A stretch of DNA of 64,000 bases, from contig JAFUPA010000008.1 of assembly GCA_017481575.1 (NCBI GenBank), forward strand, positions 36,391-100,390. Direction: 5' to 3'. This DNA comes from Clostridia bacterium (GTDB lineage: Bacteria; Bacillota; Clostridia; Oscillospirales; Acutalibacteraceae). Under the pieces are notes generated by a model. The model did no database searches and was not told the DNA's origin. It saw nothing but the letters and a program-made list of their open reading frames with translations. Every line of letters starts with the position of its first letter. Positions within the stretch are counted from its first letter, which is position 1. The translations under genes were made by a program, and so were the position numbers. Below are positions 58,197-64,000 of this stretch, piece after piece.

Positions 58197-58309
58197 TTTT
58201 GCCTGTAAGGCAAAAATTTCATATCGGCAGAGCCGATATTTCATATTGCGACAGCAATATTTCATCTGACCGTAGGTCAGATTTCATTTCAATGTTGTTT
58301 GCAACATTG
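58197..58309. repeat. Tandem string of five short hairpins
   Basis: Five consecutive inverted repeats at 58197-58215, 58221-58239, 58243-58260, 58264-58282 and 58290-58309. Stems are 7-8 bp and perfect, loops 3-5 bases, and linkers are TTTC-like. Each stem has a different sequence. It lies just upstream of tRNA-Leu. Confidence 0.85.
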
Positions 58310-58316
58310 TTCATAC

Positions 58317-58403
58317 GCTGGTGTGGCGAAATAGGCAGACGCAAGGGACTTAAAATCCCTCGGTAGCAATACCGTACCGGTTCAAGTCCGGTCACCAGCA
58401 CCA
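58317..58403 (+). tRNA. tRNA-Leu (anticodon TAA)
   Basis: Class II cloverleaf with long variable arm: acceptor GCTGGTG/CACCAGC, anticodon stem AGGGA/TCCCT enclosing loop CTTAAAA, T-arm GGTTCAAGTCC, A73 and encoded CCA. It sits at the left side of the accessory region and could be an integration target. Confidence 0.96.
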
Positions 58404-58534: not shown

Positions 58535-60025
58535 TTATTTATTGCTTAAACGACCACTTATCGTTCCATCTGAGTTGTTAGAACGAATAGTATAACTGAT
58601 GCTAATATTTTTACTTTTTTGTTTAAGCAATAAAACTCCATCTAACCATTTAGTTTCGCCAGCTTGTAAAGAACTAATTGTGAATTCAAATTTGTTTTCT
58701 CCATTTGGAGACGCAATATATTCTTTTAATCTATCTTCATAGTCTTCTGCATCGTAATCAGGAGAAGAATCCCACAAATCTACAACAGGGTGAAACTCTG
58801 GGTAGTTTATTACATCTGATTTTTCATCATATTTTACTGTTTGATTTTCAGGCATTCTAAACAAACTTTCGATAAAGCCATATTCGTAGATAAATCCTTC
58901 ACACCCATTCAAATCATCAATAATTAGTTCTTGTGAAGGTGTGATTAACTCAAAATTGTCTCCTTCAACAGTTAAGAATATGTTGATATTTCCATCTAAT
59001 GTTGTTGAGGTGTTTTTTAAAGCTAACGGGATCATGGAGAAGTCTTTGAATGTCTGTATGTATACGTCAAAAGCCTGTATTCTTGTGAGTTTACTTTCCA
59101 AAGATTCAATATCATCATATTTACTTATTTCGGAATCTGATCCTTGATAATCATATCCTCTTGTTACTAAATTGAGTTTTTTCTTTAATTGTCCCACACA
59201 AAAGAAGTTATCGTCCAAATCTTTACCAAGAATATCTTTAACTTGAGTGATAATATCATTTTTTCGTTTCTTATTAATTATTACAGGTGTATATTCTCCT
59301 ATTAATCCAGATAAAGTAATTTCTTCCGATATATGCTCATCTTTGGTGCAATCCTCAATCTTATATGCTGATATTCTATTTATAAGATCCTCTGCCTCGA
59401 GAACCAGCGTATCTCTTATTCCTGTTCTGTTAAATATAGGGTTAATAACAACATCTTTGCTAACCTTATCAATGCAAAGATCATATCCTAGTAATGTGTG
59501 ATATGATCGCCCTTCTTTCGCTCTTATTGCATTACCACCATCAATTAGTTGATTTATCGTATTCGACAATATTCCTACCAATTCGTCTCTAACTTTGGAT
59601 TTGTCGTTATTTTTCAATGAATAGCTAGTTATTCTATGCTGTCTTAAATCAAATGGTAACGCATCCAAATCAGAATAGTCTGTATTGTAAACACATATTA
59701 TTCTATCCCAATTTAGCGTCTTAACTGCATATCCCAACTCGATTAGCACATTAGGATTTGGCGTTGGTCTAGAACCCGTTCTTAAGAACTTGCATTTAGA
59801 TTTGTTAGTTATTGATATATCTGCTACAAATAAATCGCACTCATCGATTTTCTCAAAGATTGTTTTTGTGATATCGGGAGCACCTAATTTATCTTTTGTG
59901 TCTCGATCAGCGGTAATTTCAATAATGTCTTTGAATTTTTTAATAGTTTTATCAATGCAACCTTGAATGAAATTTCTATTTTCTGAGTTCGGTAAATCAG
60001 ATTGCCAAGAATAAAAAATTTTCAC
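58535..60025 (-). CDS. TIR-like domain protein, possible defence effector
   Basis: A 496-residue protein. The N-terminal 150 residues look like a TIR or deoxyribosyltransferase-like fold: KIFYSWQSDLP, ECDLFVADIS, and NPNVLIELGYA with a candidate catalytic Glu96. The remaining 340 residues have no family I recognise and may be a sensor. GTG start with AGGGTGG upstream; a minus-strand TATAAT (60065-60060) with extended TG is a likely promoter. AT-rich, alone on its strand between tRNA-Leu and an integrase. Such stand-alone proteins occur in defence islands; no partner gene is present. Confidence 0.68.
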   Translation of the reverse strand: MKIFYSWQSDLPNSENRNFIQGCIDKTIKKFKDIIEITADRDTKDKLGAPDITKTIFEKIDECDLFVADISITNKSKCKFLRTGSRPTPNPNVLIELGYAVKTLNWDRIICVYNTDYSDLDALPFDLRQHRITSYSLKNNDKSKVRDELVGILSNTINQLIDGGNAIRAKEGRSYHTLLGYDLCIDKVSKDVVINPIFNRTGIRDTLVLEAEDLINRISAYKIEDCTKDEHISEEITLSGLIGEYTPVIINKKRKNDIITQVKDILGKDLDDNFFCVGQLKKKLNLVTRGYDYQGSDSEISKYDDIESLESKLTRIQAFDVYIQTFKDFSMIPLALKNTSTTLDGNINIFLTVEGDNFELITPSQELIIDDLNGCEGFIYEYGFIESLFRMPENQTVKYDEKSDVINYPEFHPVVDLWDSSPDYDAEDYEDRLKEYIASPNGENKFEFTISSLQAGETKWLDGVLLLKQKSKNISISYTIRSNNSDGTISGRLSNK

Positions 60026-60125
60026 TCTCTTGTACCACCCTTTATGTTCGATTTGATTTATTATATCATACTACAAGCGTTATTAAAATACTTTCTATAC
60101 ACAAAACCAAATAATTATAGATAAA

Positions 60126-60154
60126 GCGGCACAAAGATCGAAATTTTGCGCCGC
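60126..60154 (-). terminator. Terminator of the integrase operon
   Basis: A 10-bp stem with one G-T pair (60126-60135 and 60145-60154), followed on the minus strand by TTTATCTATAATTATTT. It lies just behind the 55-residue gene. Confidence 0.7.
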
Positions 60155-60160
60155 CATTGT

Positions 60161-60328
60161 CTATTTATTGTCTTTTTCAAATTGTTCCTTTTTCCACTTT
60201 TCAAATTCTTGTCTACCTTCTTCGGATTCAAAAAAGTCTAATATGTCCGGCAGGAAGCATTTTGCCAATGCTTCAATTTCATCTTCAGGTATGTGGGATT
60301 TGAGAATGATTTTGACCTCTCTGCCCAC
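60161..60328 (-). CDS. 55-residue integrase-linked protein
   Basis: A small acidic and helical protein (REVKIILKSHIPEDEIEAL, then AKCFLPDILDFFESEEGRQEFEKWKKEQF). GTG start with GGAGGAGA upstream, 15 bases after the integrase stop, and a terminator behind, so it is co-transcribed with the integrase. Small proteins in this place often act in excision or control, but the sequence shows no clear DNA-binding motif. Confidence 0.65.
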   Translation of the reverse strand: MGREVKIILKSHIPEDEIEALAKCFLPDILDFFESEEGRQEFEKWKKEQFEKDNK

Positions 60329-60343
60329 TTATCTCCTCCTCTC

Positions 60344-61318
60344 TTATGAGTCTTTCAGAAACTCGGAATAGAACTTCTTGATGTCGTTGCGGTGGTGTCC
60401 CATACGCTCGCTCATTTCGTTTTCAACCTGGCGTTCGGTCATGCCGCCCTCGGCAATCAAGCGACGGCGATTTTCTTGAAAGTACAGGTGACGAAGTCCG
60501 TGCCAGGACGGTCTTTTAATTCTCGGCTTGCGGTCAGGCCTGACATAATCACGCCTATCGGGATCAACAAACTTTTTGCTGTGATTGCTGCGCCAGTTCT
60601 GCAATGAAGCCTTCTCTTTCTTTACGCTGTGCTTGTGGTTATCGCAGATCAGATAGTCTTTGGACTTCTTGCCATTCTCACGAAGATAAGCAACGATCTC
60701 GTTCAGAATCTTCTCCTGAATGGGACGGTCTACGGGAATATCCCTCACCAGACCGCCCTTGGTGTTCTTAACGTTCAACTGCTTGTAGCGGATCGCATCC
60801 TCCAACTGATACAAACGGAGCGTAGCGGCTTCCTCAAAGCGCAAGCCGAAGTATCTTGAAAGATATGCTTGAATCACAACGTCGTAGCGGTTCATAGAAC
60901 GGGCAACCTTGATCATATCGTCGAACTCTTTCGGCAAAAATGCACGGTCAAATTCGTAATCGTTCTTTTCGGATATTCCCAAGTCTTTGTTTGACGGCAG
61001 AATATTTTTGCTGTGTGTCAGACTGTGGTAATGTCTGATTGCTGACATTTCGGTGCGGATATAGCTATTCAAACACTCTCTGTCGAAGAAACTTTCAATG
61101 TATGGATAGATGTGCTTTGCTGATACATTCTTGAGATTCTTTATTTCAGTGTTCTCGCCAAGCCATTTGCAGAACCGATATTCTGCATCTTCATACCGTT
61201 CAATGCAGCCAATGCTGTTAATGTTACTGCTGGCTTTAAGACGATCCGCCTGTGCTATCAGGTTCTTTGCCTTGTTTGCGTTCCGGACTTGCTTTTGTTC
61301 TTCCGTAAGTTTAGCCAT
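60344..61318 (-). CDS. Tyrosine-type site-specific integrase
   Basis: A 324-residue tyrosine recombinase with a full catalytic set: Arg160 (GLRFEEA), Lys187 (NTKGG), His273 and Arg276 (HGLRH), His308/309 (MGHHR) and Tyr317 (KFYSEF). An N-terminal SAM-like DNA-binding domain precedes it. ATG 61318 is preferred, as AAGGAGG lies seven bases upstream; ATG 61324 is too close to that site. It marks a mobile or formerly mobile element. Its attachment site cannot be located in the window. Confidence 0.9.
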   Translation of the reverse strand: MAKLTEEQKQVRNANKAKNLIAQADRLKASSNINSIGCIERYEDAEYRFCKWLGENTEIKNLKNVSAKHIYPYIESFFDRECLNSYIRTEMSAIRHYHSLTHSKNILPSNKDLGISEKNDYEFDRAFLPKEFDDMIKVARSMNRYDVVIQAYLSRYFGLRFEEAATLRLYQLEDAIRYKQLNVKNTKGGLVRDIPVDRPIQEKILNEIVAYLRENGKKSKDYLICDNHKHSVKKEKASLQNWRSNHSKKFVDPDRRDYVRPDRKPRIKRPSWHGLRHLYFQENRRRLIAEGGMTERQVENEMSERMGHHRNDIKKFYSEFLKDS

Positions 61319-61439
61319 AGGCATTCCTCCTTCCTCTGAGATTTTTCTTATTCAATCTTTAAGGCTGAGGAAATATAGTACATACATTGCGATTTGGCAA
61401 GTACCTTTTGCAAATTTTTTAAAAATTTCAACAGGGCTA

Positions 61440-61479
61440 AAAATTCGGCGGCGCAGGAGCTTCAATCTCCTGCGCCGCC
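61440..61479 (-). terminator. Terminator between the repeat array and the integrase
   Basis: A perfect 13-bp GC-rich stem (61447-61459 and 61467-61479), followed on the minus strand by GAATTTTT. It would stop transcripts coming from the repeat array before they reach the integrase, as an attenuator or as the 3' end of a separate RNA. Confidence 0.75.
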
Positions 61480-61507
61480 TTTGAAAATGACGATCATATT
61501 TTTTCCA

Positions 61508-62164
61508 TCATTCCGAAACGACGGTCATATTATCATTTGCGAATAAGGGGCATAGAAAGGGGTATAGCAACTCTAAAGGGGGACAATAAGGGGCATACAT
61601 ACCCCTTGTTTGCGCGGTCATTCCGAAAAGCAAATCATCTACTTTGAAAGGAACTGTCATTTTTCGAGCGCATCATTCCGAAAGGATGGTCATAGTCATA
61701 TCGAAAAAGATGGACAATGCCCTAACTCATATCTTTAATGAGGACTATTTTCAGCCGACTGTTTGATGTTTAATTGGTATCATTCCGAAATGTCATCCTT
61801 TGAACATCGAACAGCCGGAACGCGCCGTAGGCGCACATACATAAATCAATAACAAATCTAGAGGGAATCATCTCAATATGTATATCATCTTAAATTATTT
61901 ATCATTTATCATTCCGAAATGGGCGCAAGGCATAGTTCACCCACTGACAGTTTCATCGGTTTTACCTGCCGTTACTCCCTTTTTCTTTTTCAAGGGTTCT
62001 GGAAAGCCTTGCGAATAGGGGCTTTTTGTTCGCCACCGGGCTCAGTTTCTATTTCCCTGCGAGAAATAGAAACTGAGCCAATGATGGTCATATCTATCAT
62101 TCCGAAGGGGAAATCATAAGTCATTCCGATTCGCAAATCATTTTCATTCCGAAGAGAGAATCAT
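61508..62164 (-). repeat. Dispersed 21-bp CATTCCGAA repeats, each a six-codon mini-ORF
   Basis: Eight copies centred on CATTCCGAA (one has CATTCCGAT), all in one direction. Six are exactly 21 bp (61508-61528, 61618-61638, 61673-61693, 62097-62117, 62121-62141, 62144-62164). Read on the minus strand each is ATG, four variable codons ending in TCG, GAA, then TGA: MTVVSE, MICFSE, MTILSE, MISPSE, MICESE and MILSSE. Copies at 61780-61796 (17 bp) and near 61909 are imperfect. The last three are almost head to tail (gaps of 3 and 2 bases). No known repeat class is recognised. Confidence 0.8.
62040..62078. other. 16-bp perfect hairpin without T-tract
   Basis: Arms 62040-62055 and 62063-62078 with a 7-base loop lie inside the repeat region, just before the head-to-tail copies. 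No T-run on either strand, so it is probably not a terminator; it may be a protein or RNA binding structure. Confidence 0.6.
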
Positions 62165-62214
62165 ATTAAATTTTCCCGTTAAAGTAGGTCAGTACTATGA
62201 GGCATACGCCCCAA

Positions 62215-62452
62215 CGCATGCCTGCCGCTTGACAGGTGCCCTTGCGGGCTGCGCCTACACCACACACTAGCTATTAGATAGTCTACCGCTGAACTCGGCA
62301 GGGTGGCGGGGTTTCGATTTTCCATTGAAAGCCCATAACGTTGTCTGCTCAAAGGCAGATAAGCGGCTCTTCGCAAATGAGATAATATAGTACGACAAGC
62401 TTCGTACAGTTTTCAGCTCAACAAGTGAGCCTATTATCTCAACGCCCCGTTG
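62215..62452. ncRNA. Candidate structured RNA or DNA element
   Basis: A dense set of inverted repeats: 62238-62249, 62344-62359, a 9-bp closing stem 62379-62387/62432-62440 that encloses two hairpins (62390-62407 and 62416-62430) as a three-way junction, then 62440-62452. The strand cannot be decided. It could be a non-coding RNA, part of an intron, or an origin/transfer site of the element. No known family is recognised. Confidence 0.4.
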
Positions 62453-62725
62453 TCTTCCGCACGGGTGGCTGTCAGCAAATGGCGCAATATACGTACAAAA
62501 CCGTTGCACATCCATACGCTCTTCCATCTGCCATACGTCGGTCACACCAGCCATTTGTGACCGCACCTCTTTTGCTCATTTGCAAGCCAAATTTCTTTTA
62601 CAATATTTCAAATTCCTCCTGTCTTTATTACTGTAATTCCTCCTTAATATTTTCAAAGAGTACGCCTGTAATATGTAAGGAGGAGCTTGAAAAAGCAAGT
62701 AATTTGTATTTCATCTTCACATTAC

Positions 62726-62754
62726 TTGTTCTGATCCTGGAAATGGAGTATAAT
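62726..62754 (+). promoter_or_regulatory. Promoter of the two-component system
   Basis: TTGTTC (62726-62731), 17 bases, TATAAT (62749-62754). It lies about 76 bases before the response regulator. Confidence 0.62.
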
Positions 62755-62830
62755 AATATATGCTTTTATTTTGATAAAATTTTGATATTTATGGTTTATG
62801 ATTATATGATTGAACAGGAGGTGTTCAGTT

Positions 62831-63502
62831 ATGCCTAAAATTTTGATAGTTGACGATGAGCGAGATGTTGTAGAGCTTCTTCGCAATTATTTTGAGCTTA
62901 GTGGTTATGACGTGTTGTTTGCATACGATGGTGAAAAGGCGCTTGAAAAAATGAGTCAAAAACCCGATGTAATACTTCTCGATGTCAATATGCCAAAACT
63001 AAACGGACTTGAGGTATGCAAAAAGATTCGGGAATTTGTTTCCTGCCCGATCTTGTTTTTAACAGCTAATGTAGATGATGTTGATAAAATAAACGGTTTT
63101 TCTGCAGGCGGTGATGATTATATCACGAAGCCCTTCTCGCTTGATGAATTGGGCGCCCGTGTCTCGGCTCACTTACGTCGTGATATGAGATTGCAGAAAA
63201 AATCCGATTTGAAATTCAATGACGATTTGGTTATAGACTATTCCTCAAAAGCCGTCTATTTCAAGGATACACCAATTTCATTTTCCAAAACGGAATTTGA
63301 CATTATAGAACTGCTTTCCACCAATGCCGGTATCGTTTTTGATAAAGAGCGTATATATGATCGCTTATGGGGATTTGACAGCGACGGCTACTCTATGACG
63401 GTAGTTGAACATATCCGAAAGATACGGGCAAAATTTACAGAAGCAGGCTGCAAATCATACATAGCAACAGTATGGGGGTGTGGGTATAAATGGGAAAATT
63501 AA
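62831..63502 (+). CDS. OmpR/PhoB-type response regulator
   Basis: A 223-residue regulator: receiver domain with acidic pocket LIVDDERD, phospho-accepting Asp in VILLDVNMPK, and Lys in ITKPFS; C-terminal winged helix with SKTEFDIIELL and VEHIRKIRAKF, ending YIATVWGCGYKWEN. ATG 62831 has AGGAGGTG upstream. It overlaps the kinase gene by 13 bases. AT-richer than the core genome, in keeping with an acquired region. Targets are outside the window. Confidence 0.93.
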   Translation: MPKILIVDDERDVVELLRNYFELSGYDVLFAYDGEKALEKMSQKPDVILLDVNMPKLNGLEVCKKIREFVSCPILFLTANVDDVDKINGFSAGGDDYITKPFSLDELGARVSAHLRRDMRLQKKSDLKFNDDLVIDYSSKAVYFKDTPISFSKTEFDIIELLSTNAGIVFDKERIYDRLWGFDSDGYSMTVVEHIRKIRAKFTEAGCKSYIATVWGCGYKWEN

Positions 63503-64000
63503 GGAAAGCTATTGCAAGAATACCGCTAATGCCCTCACTGATAATCGTTATGTCATTTTTTATCATATTAGCGGTAATTCTTTCAAAAACAACGACGAGC
63601 TTTGCAAATGAACAAATACAACTCATTGGGGCAAAATATACTGTGTTTGAAGAGAAAACCGAGGTTGACGATGAATCAGAACATGGTATTGTACGTACTC
63701 TTTATATAGATGTTCTTCCGTTTTCCGAGGAAGATAAACAAGCGTATGATTTCTACACAGTGATCTATGAGTATTCCTCTTTTTTCTGGTGTATTGTCAG
63801 TATTACGATCGGTGCCGTTATCTTTTATTTCGGTAAACTACAAAAGCCGATAAAACTTTTAATAAATGCTTCGGAAAACATTTCCGATGATAATCTCGAC
63901 TTCGTTATAGATTACAGCGGCAAAGACGAGCTTGGACAGCTATGCTCTTCTTTTGAAAAAATGCGGTTATCGCTGATGGATAATAACCGAACAATGTGGC
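63490..64000 (+). CDS. Sensor histidine kinase (3' partial)
   Basis: The first 170 residues of a sensor kinase, cut by the window end. Two membrane segments (PSLIIVMSFFIILAVIL and FFWCIVSITIGAVIFYF) flank an outer loop of about 65 residues, and a HAMP-like linker follows (KPIKLLINASENISDDNLDF...GKDELGQLCSSFEKMR). The H-box and ATPase domain are not included. It pairs with the overlapping response regulator. Such pairs often control a downstream ABC transporter, which would be outside the window. Confidence 0.88.
   Translation, partial: MGKLRKAIARIPLMPSLIIVMSFFIILAVILSKTTTSFANEQIQLIGAKYTVFEEKTEVDDESEHGIVRTLYIDVLPFSEEDKQAYDFYTVIYEYSSFFWCIVSITIGAVIFYFGKLQKPIKLLINASENISDDNLDFVIDYSGKDELGQLCSSFEKMRLSLMDNNRTMW

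Follow-up and report, generated by a model that had tools for sequence, protein, structure and literature searches.

The arm-type sites of tyrosine integrases are short direct sites, several of which are grouped next to the integrase gene. The bridge RNA of the IS110 elements is a structured non-coding RNA encoded directly upstream of the recombinase gene and on the same strand. The type III toxin-antitoxin systems (ToxIN) bring together a promoter, RNA repeats, a terminator and an endoRNase gene on one strand, and ToxI, like CsrB, is an RNA that binds and holds a protein. The function of the very large bacterial RNAs is an open question and most of them are without a known partner. ROOL and GOLLD are described, in the available part of the source, as large structured RNAs of unknown function found on mobile elements and phages, often near tRNA genes (PMC12286853). 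The available part of the STAXI description presents a pseudoknot with UUCG loops, occurring in two or three copies close to genes for integrases and other DNA-handling proteins, with its authors leaving open whether it acts as RNA or as single-stranded DNA (PMC2864571).

Here we describe a conserved, structured, repeat-bearing element that lies upstream of one subfamily of tyrosine recombinases and is present in the 64-kb stretch of clostridial DNA analyzed as a whole (hereafter the window). It is characterized by a conserved unit of fixed length and orientation, linkage to the integrase, a covarying helix and terminators. Like ROOL and GOLLD, as far as the available accounts describe them, it is a large structured element on mobile DNA with tRNA genes nearby; unlike them, it adjoins an integrase, contains arrayed copies of a 21-nt unit and matches no Rfam model at gathering score. 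With STAXI, going by the portion available, it shares a repeated motif near an integrase, but the units number 4-14 and are devoid of internal covariation. By these partially available descriptions, ROOL, GOLLD and STAXI are the nearest kinds, and we regard the element as a new family within a broad class that is already known. The arrangement of promoter-like boxes, repeats, terminator and protein gene on one strand is reminiscent of ToxIN; however, the gene is a tyrosine recombinase rather than an endoRNase and the unit spacing is irregular. Similarly, the structured element immediately precedes a recombinase gene and shares its strand, as does the IS110 bridge RNA, but the recombinase is of another class and there is no clear target-like stretch. 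Finally, as in the case of arm-type sites, several short direct units are found beside the integrase gene; yet these are interspersed with covarying hairpins and, in the window, are about 3 kb away from the tRNA, and Pfam reports no arm-binding domain in the window integrase. On balance, we lean slightly towards the array belonging to a large structured non-coding RNA that has its own transcription unit directly upstream of the tyrosine recombinase; action as RNA is suggested by the terminators, the one-strand units and the covarying helices.

The features of the region in the window are as follows:

58317..58403, plus strand: tRNA-Leu (taa), on the integrase side
60344..61324, minus strand: tyrosine recombinase of 326 aa
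61372..61400, minus strand: integrase promoter-like site, TTGCCA-17-TATATT
61440..62702, minus strand: proposed non-coding transcription unit, with 62702 being the end of the similarity to L068
61447..61479, minus strand: intrinsic terminator, a 13-pair stem followed by GAATTTTTAG, which would be the 3' end of the proposed RNA
61477..61497, minus strand: degenerate unit GCCTTTGAAAATGACGATCAT, overlapping the terminator stem (PWM score 18.8)
61508..61528, minus strand: unit 1, full 21 bp, plus-strand letters TCATTCCGAAACGACGGTCAT
61618..61638, minus strand: unit 2, full 21 bp
61673..61693, minus strand: unit 3, full 21 bp
61696..61716, minus strand: degenerate unit, beginning TCATATCGA
61755..61818, minus strand: imperfect 19-bp hairpin, whose conserved loop holds unit 4 (by eye; window, L068 and L005)
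61780..61793, minus strand: unit 4, core without trailing TCAT, inside the loop of the hairpin 61755-61818
61868..61888, minus strand: degenerate unit TCATCTCAATATGTATATCAT (PWM score 17.6)
61909..61922, minus strand: unit 5, core without trailing TCAT, abutting helix H1
61921..62013, minus strand: domain H1, with only an 8-bp closing stem in the window (arms 62006-62013 / 61924-61931), longer in most relatives
62039..62079, minus strand: hairpin H2, core GUUUCUAU/AUAGAAAC, covarying over 11 loci
62097..62117, minus strand: unit 6, full 21 bp
62121..62141, minus strand: unit 7, full 21 bp, variant core CATTCCGAT
62144..62164, minus strand: unit 8, full 21 bp
62635..62645, minus strand: SD-like AAGGAGGAATT near the 5' end (by eye; alike in L068 and L107)
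62668..62698, minus strand: promoter-like boxes TTGCTT-19-TATTAC at the 5' end (by eye; alike in L068 and L107)

The core CATTCCGAA occurs in seven exact copies on the plus strand, all within 61509-62153 (starts at 61509, 61619, 61674, 61781, 61910, 62098 and 62145) and none elsewhere in the 64 kb; this count was reached in 0 of 100 shuffles of the whole window (mean 0.80, largest 4). With an eighth core, CATTCCGAT, starting at 62122, the eight copies on one strand claimed by an earlier, sequence-only reading (seven exact, one with a final T) are all accounted for. Six units take the form TCAT-N13-TCAT of 21 bp (starts at 61508, 61618, 61673, 62097, 62121 and 62144), and their minus-strand translations (MTVVSE, MICFSE, MTILSE, MISPSE, MICESE and MILSSE) agree with those given in that reading. 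It also rightly described the spacing as irregular, with three copies nearly head to tail (110, 55, 107, 129, 188, 24 and 23 from start to start), and placed a terminator between the array and the integrase, where we find the 13-pair stem at 61479-61447 and its T run. It overlooked degenerate copies, such as those at 61477, 61696 and 61868. A CRISPR array was rejected, given the spacing of 23-188 in the window and the lack of a regular repeat-spacer pattern. Open reading frames of at least 60 aa listed across 61500-62640 were set aside as non-genes by eye only, because the 82% identical L068 has indels there.

L068 was recovered by the exact pattern in viral contigs and again through its integrase; it shows 82.7% identity to the window across 1117 bp of this region, and the two integrase proteins are 88% identical. 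A search of 60 relatives with the window integrase matched three genomes, namely its own, G006 (33%) and G014 (36%), the latter two both carrying the array. At the DNA level, 10 of 398 family genomes gave some match: G291 and G224, both array carriers, matched in two co-linear pieces, and the remaining matches were short and single, only G394 among them being taken further. The consensus with at most two mismatches matched 55 of the 398 family genomes, mostly singly, with the clusters yielding L175-L185; a reversed control pattern gave at most two matches per genome in the same set. The exact window-type unit was found in four of 300 family genomes, three of which had one match. Among viral contigs, the window-type pattern hit 76 stretches, once each save L068 (twice); the loop pattern recovered L068 alone, the tandem pattern gave no match, and the integrase and its profile matched a single contig, that of L068. 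Genome contigs searched with the integrase yielded two partial loci, L083 and L084, and phage and plasmid records gave no blastn match at E 1e-5. Besides the window, 11 more loci from related Clostridia each have 4-14 copies of the unit immediately upstream of a tyrosine recombinase of one subfamily.

The window integrase is identified as a tyrosine recombinase by Pfam, PHROGs and PDB profile searches, with Pfam recognizing SAM-like core-binding and catalytic domains. In 12 of the 26 loci examined a unit cluster lies beside an integrase of this subfamily, as defined by the profile of alignment A2: the window, L090/L068, L107 (G006), L105 (G224), L106 (G291), L108 (G014), L176 (G246), L177 (G256), L178 (G133), L179 (G286), L180 (G178) and L182 (G221). 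These loci support the suggestion, also made from the sequence alone, of a new repeat family. In all 12 the integrase gene lies downstream and has the orientation opposite to that of the motif as written; array and integrase are separated by a Fic gene pair in L178. Clusters of at least three units are also found in L175, L181, L183, L185 and L189, with no such integrase within the stretch examined, while L184, L186, L187 and L188 have neither a three-unit cluster within 400 bp nor such an integrase. The class-level loci L141-L145 have the integrase without a unit cluster, a single unit match being present in L142.

Searching from the integrase side, profile A6 retrieved 13 matches with E < 1e-120 from the 398 family genomes, and at least four units were present upstream in 10 of 12 testable close relatives; G133:C58, with only 242 bp upstream of the integrase, was left out of the testable set. 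G178:C17 has two unit matches beside a different gene, a remnant, and G133:C1 (L213) has no unit in the 1.5 kb upstream of the integrase. Ten weaker matches were devoid of units: five in longer stretches (L217-L221, with L217 beginning at a contig edge) and five in short stretches scanned with a simple pattern. Since units occur upstream in 10 of the 12 close relatives and in none of the weaker matches, the array goes with one integrase subfamily.

Certain other features were seen by eye around these genes. Just upstream of the array-less integrase of L213 (G133:C1, minus strand) an unrelated, chromosomal-looking sequence begins, and this junction may be an attachment junction. Between the array and the integrase start, L108 (2790-2960), L106 and L179 have a second short repeat, TTTTCGTNNACA or its reverse; it possibly represents the core sites of the integrase. 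L143 (G810:C14) has two distant integrase relatives, each followed by a gene resembling IS110-family transposases. L185 has another, integrase-looking ORF, which we take to resemble the Tn916-type integrases.

Across the relatives the unit has the consensus TCATTTCGAAANGANRRTCAT (in the RNA sense AUGAYYNUCNUUUCGRAAUGA). Position 4 is invariant and positions 9, 10, 13, 7 and 3 nearly so, while positions 12 and 15 carry almost no information (0.08 and 0.09 bits). When 123 units (111 distinct) from 13 loci were collected on their first 14 columns only, a trailing TCAT was found at offset 17 in 69 of them; the next peak, at offset 24 (29 units), corresponds to the tandem period. The two-mismatch consensus pattern itself contains the trailing TCAT, and hence a fixed length cannot be independently supported by the loci that it retrieved. 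The independent evidence comes from G006, G014, G224 and G291, whose loci (L105, L106, L107 and L108) were not found via that TCAT and have it at offset 17 in 32 of 54 units; the fixed length is a true feature of the unit. Using a PWM trained on the window, L068, L005, L105 and L106, all 94 units scoring at least 16 in the twelve integrase-linked loci are on one strand. In L175, L181, L184 and L185, which are without this integrase, units occur on both strands, some overlapping as palindromes. Across loci the units are irregularly spaced and diverged.

The sequence-only reading had raised the possibility that each unit is a translated six-codon frame within a leader of tandem mini-ORFs controlling the integrase. 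The six in-frame units of the window and the length of 21 fixed in many relatives are what such a leader would display; however, of the 123 units the stop is kept in 88, the ATG in 74 and both in only 55. Of these 55, at least three are interrupted by a stop (peptides examined for 48 of them) and none has an SD-like site within 16 nt. Moreover, in 47 distinct full units the information by codon position is 0.90, 0.91 and 1.43 bits, with the third position being the most conserved. Copies that break the frame, which that reading had itself named as evidence against mini-ORFs, are therefore present in the relatives. Together, the frame loss, inner stops, missing SD-like sites and codon-position pattern lead us to reject translated mini-ORFs, and a leader of this type is extremely improbable. 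The caution expressed at the same time, that the mini-ORF appearance is a by-product of conserved ends and fixed length, is supported: the length is fixed, yet ATG and TGA are retained together in fewer than half of the units.

In 11 loci the array regions have folding z-scores of -4.0 to -14.8 relative to 40 dinucleotide shuffles each, with no strand preference, both strands behaving alike. For the core domain the values are -10.67 in L108, -5.01 in the window and -8.57 in L176. The units sit between long hairpins and within their loops, and the stems are near-perfect Watson-Crick helices; the hairpin at 61755-61818 has a perfect counterpart in L068. H2 covaries strongly when counted on a trimmed alignment with a manually specified structure (H1 was counted by script): over 11 sequences (10 distinct) and 15 pairs its covariation score is 0.431 against 0.118 in shuffles (0 of 500), with slid versions reaching at most 0.125. 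Pairing is seen in 92.0% of cells against 74.2% in shuffles, and both-side changes in 26 cells against 10.3; seven pairs change on both sides, a number reached by 64 of 500 shuffles. For H1, the median best stem in eight loci is 14.5, against a cross-locus mean of 7.6 and maximum of 13, with 0 of 56 chimeras attaining the median. This helix is 14-17 bp long in L105, L107, L108, L176, L177 and L178, 10 bp in L106 and L179, and only 8-9 bp in the window, L068 and L182. Its best stem is not better than the cross-locus mean in the window (8) and L068 (6.6), neither of which would be conspicuous by itself, and is under the cross-locus maximum in L106 (9.4), L179 (10) and L182 (8).

RNAalifold applied to the 5' half of four close loci gave both-side changes in 7 of 232 pairs and an unfavourable covariation term of +2.12, these loci being 82-88% alike and offering too little variation for judging covariation. 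Over the whole core alignment it returned 12 pairs only, a poor result attributable to the misalignment of L105, L106 and L178. Within the unit there is no covariation (0.685 paired versus 0.689 with permuted halves), and a hairpin in the unit found no support, with 1468 of 2000 half permutations equalling or exceeding the real value. Its strong conservation without internal pairing suggests that the unit binds a protein. To this extent the earlier proposal of protein-binding sites captured the likely role of the unit, although it missed the large structured element around the units.

The region has three terminator-like sites, where shuffles average 1.2. A T-run terminator ends the region on the integrase strand in six of the 12 loci (the window, L068, L107, L105, L106 and L176), and none was seen by eye in the remaining six. 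At the other end, the promoter scan had no hit on the boxes at 62668-62698, whose 19-nt spacer is wider than it accepts; no conserved ORF was seen by eye behind the SD-like AAGGAGGAATT in the window, L068 and L107. As the scan of the region finds four promoter-like sites where shuffles give 4.3 on average, the promoter-like site of the integrase is weak. The succession of promoter-like boxes, repeats, terminator and gene, with one short motif in many copies, could also be read as a toxin-antitoxin or sponge-type repeat RNA that holds a protein. This is very unlikely, given that the gene behind it is a tyrosine recombinase and not an endoRNase, that the units are irregularly spaced and diverged, and that the GGA of the window is absent from the family consensus UUCGAAAUGA. 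A type III toxin-antitoxin system proper was rejected on the same identification of the downstream gene by Pfam, PHROGs and PDB profiles, which is not that of a ToxN-like endoRNase.

The interpretation as a structured RNA draws on the unit linkage and strand in 12 loci, the covariation of H2, H1, the folding z-scores, the terminators in half of the loci and the fixed unit length. Against it stand the weak H1 of the window and L068, the six loci without a visible T-run terminator, the unfavourable 5'-half RNAalifold result and the promoter hits that show no excess. The strand-neutral folding, the lack of covariation in the unit and the both-strand units of L175, L181, L184 and L185 likewise count against it, and these at the same time favor its main rival. 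Under the latter, the array would be a DNA-level cis region with duplex binding sites (operator, iteron-like or recombination accessory) and hairpins that are inverted repeats acting as duplex or single-stranded DNA, for instance an oriT-like or origin-like region in a mobilisable element. The near-perfect Watson-Crick stems, the recurrence of TCAT half-sites as TCAT/ATGA/TCAT and the location of the region at the edge of shared sequence would also fit such a region, which would be unusually elaborate for the cis region of an integrative element. We consider it possible but less probable: in the 12 loci with the integrase all 94 high-scoring units share one strand, the terminators are on that strand, and no relaxase or replication gene was seen by eye in the ORF lists of L105, L106, L107 and L090.

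If the element is indeed a structured RNA, it would be about 1.3 kb long in the window and up to about 1.9 kb in relatives, transcribed on the integrase strand of integrative elements of Clostridia. The long hairpins would provide a scaffold and the unit, repeated 4-14 times in linkers and loops, would allow one RNA to carry many copies of the motif. The unit would most likely be the recognition motif of an RNA-binding protein, from either the element or the host, and the RNA might regulate or assist the recombination of the element or titrate a protein. An unlikely but more specific version is that the tyrosine recombinase has its own large RNA, which binds many copies of the recombinase or a partner via the 21-nt units, thereby organizing synapsis or controlling excision; this would be a ribonucleoprotein mode of tyrosine recombination. 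In either case, the family joins one subfamily of recombinases with a large folded element, and the countable 21-nt motif offers a direct handle for partner pull-down. RNA-guided target recognition found no clear support in the four tRNA-bearing loci: own target matches were 0-12 nt and cross-locus matches 0-11 nt, with the sole match above the cross-locus values being the 12 nt TTTCTTTTTGCT in L179.

Over the whole window the only Rfam matches at gathering score are five tRNAs and Gut-1. In 60000-64000 at E<=1 there are FinP (31.9 bits against the 45 needed, on the terminator) and JPX_2, with none at gathering score. Ten loci, including L005, L006, L140, L102 and L103 (L176-L182 were outside this search), gave sub-threshold miRNA models on L114 only. 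A known RNA family, including ROOL and GOLLD, was accordingly rejected for the window and these ten loci, there being no Rfam model at gathering score; STAXI was presumably among the models searched. The available parts of the literature searched, including PMC8040213, PMC2864571 and PMC12286853, contain neither the 21-nt repeat nor this RNA.

The tRNA-Leu (taa) gene on the integrase side of the window is likely to be the attachment gene. Of eleven array loci tested, a tRNA is on that side in the window, L176, L178 and L179 (tRNA-Leu in three, tRNA-Ser in one); the truncated relatives L083 and L084 also have tRNA genes, and in L183 (951-1617) part of the array region directly adjoins a tRNA-Leu with no integrase between them. 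The window and L068 cease to be similar at 62702, so the end of an element probably lies close to the repeat region. Further along, Pfam identifies large serine recombinases in L105, L107, L177 and L090, and ORF listing and DNA similarity point to them in L106 and L179. Other nearby genes include an RloA/RloB (AbiL-like) pair in L180 and Fic in L178. Several arrays are close to contig ends (1.8 kb in the window, about 0.05-1.1 kb in G246:C3, G291:C12, G133:C37 and G286:C11), which is where metagenome assemblies would be expected to break at a mobile or multi-copy element. Beside the tRNA-Leu of the window there is a Gut-1 RNA (Rfam RF01706, 59.5 bits) at 58211-58289, and between the tRNA-Leu and the integrase, at 58535-60025, a 496-aa protein for which PADLOC gives a weak TIR-like match (E 6.6e-4) and Pfam none. 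Past the element edge, at 62831-63502, the window encodes an OmpR-type response regulator and a sensor-like ORF.
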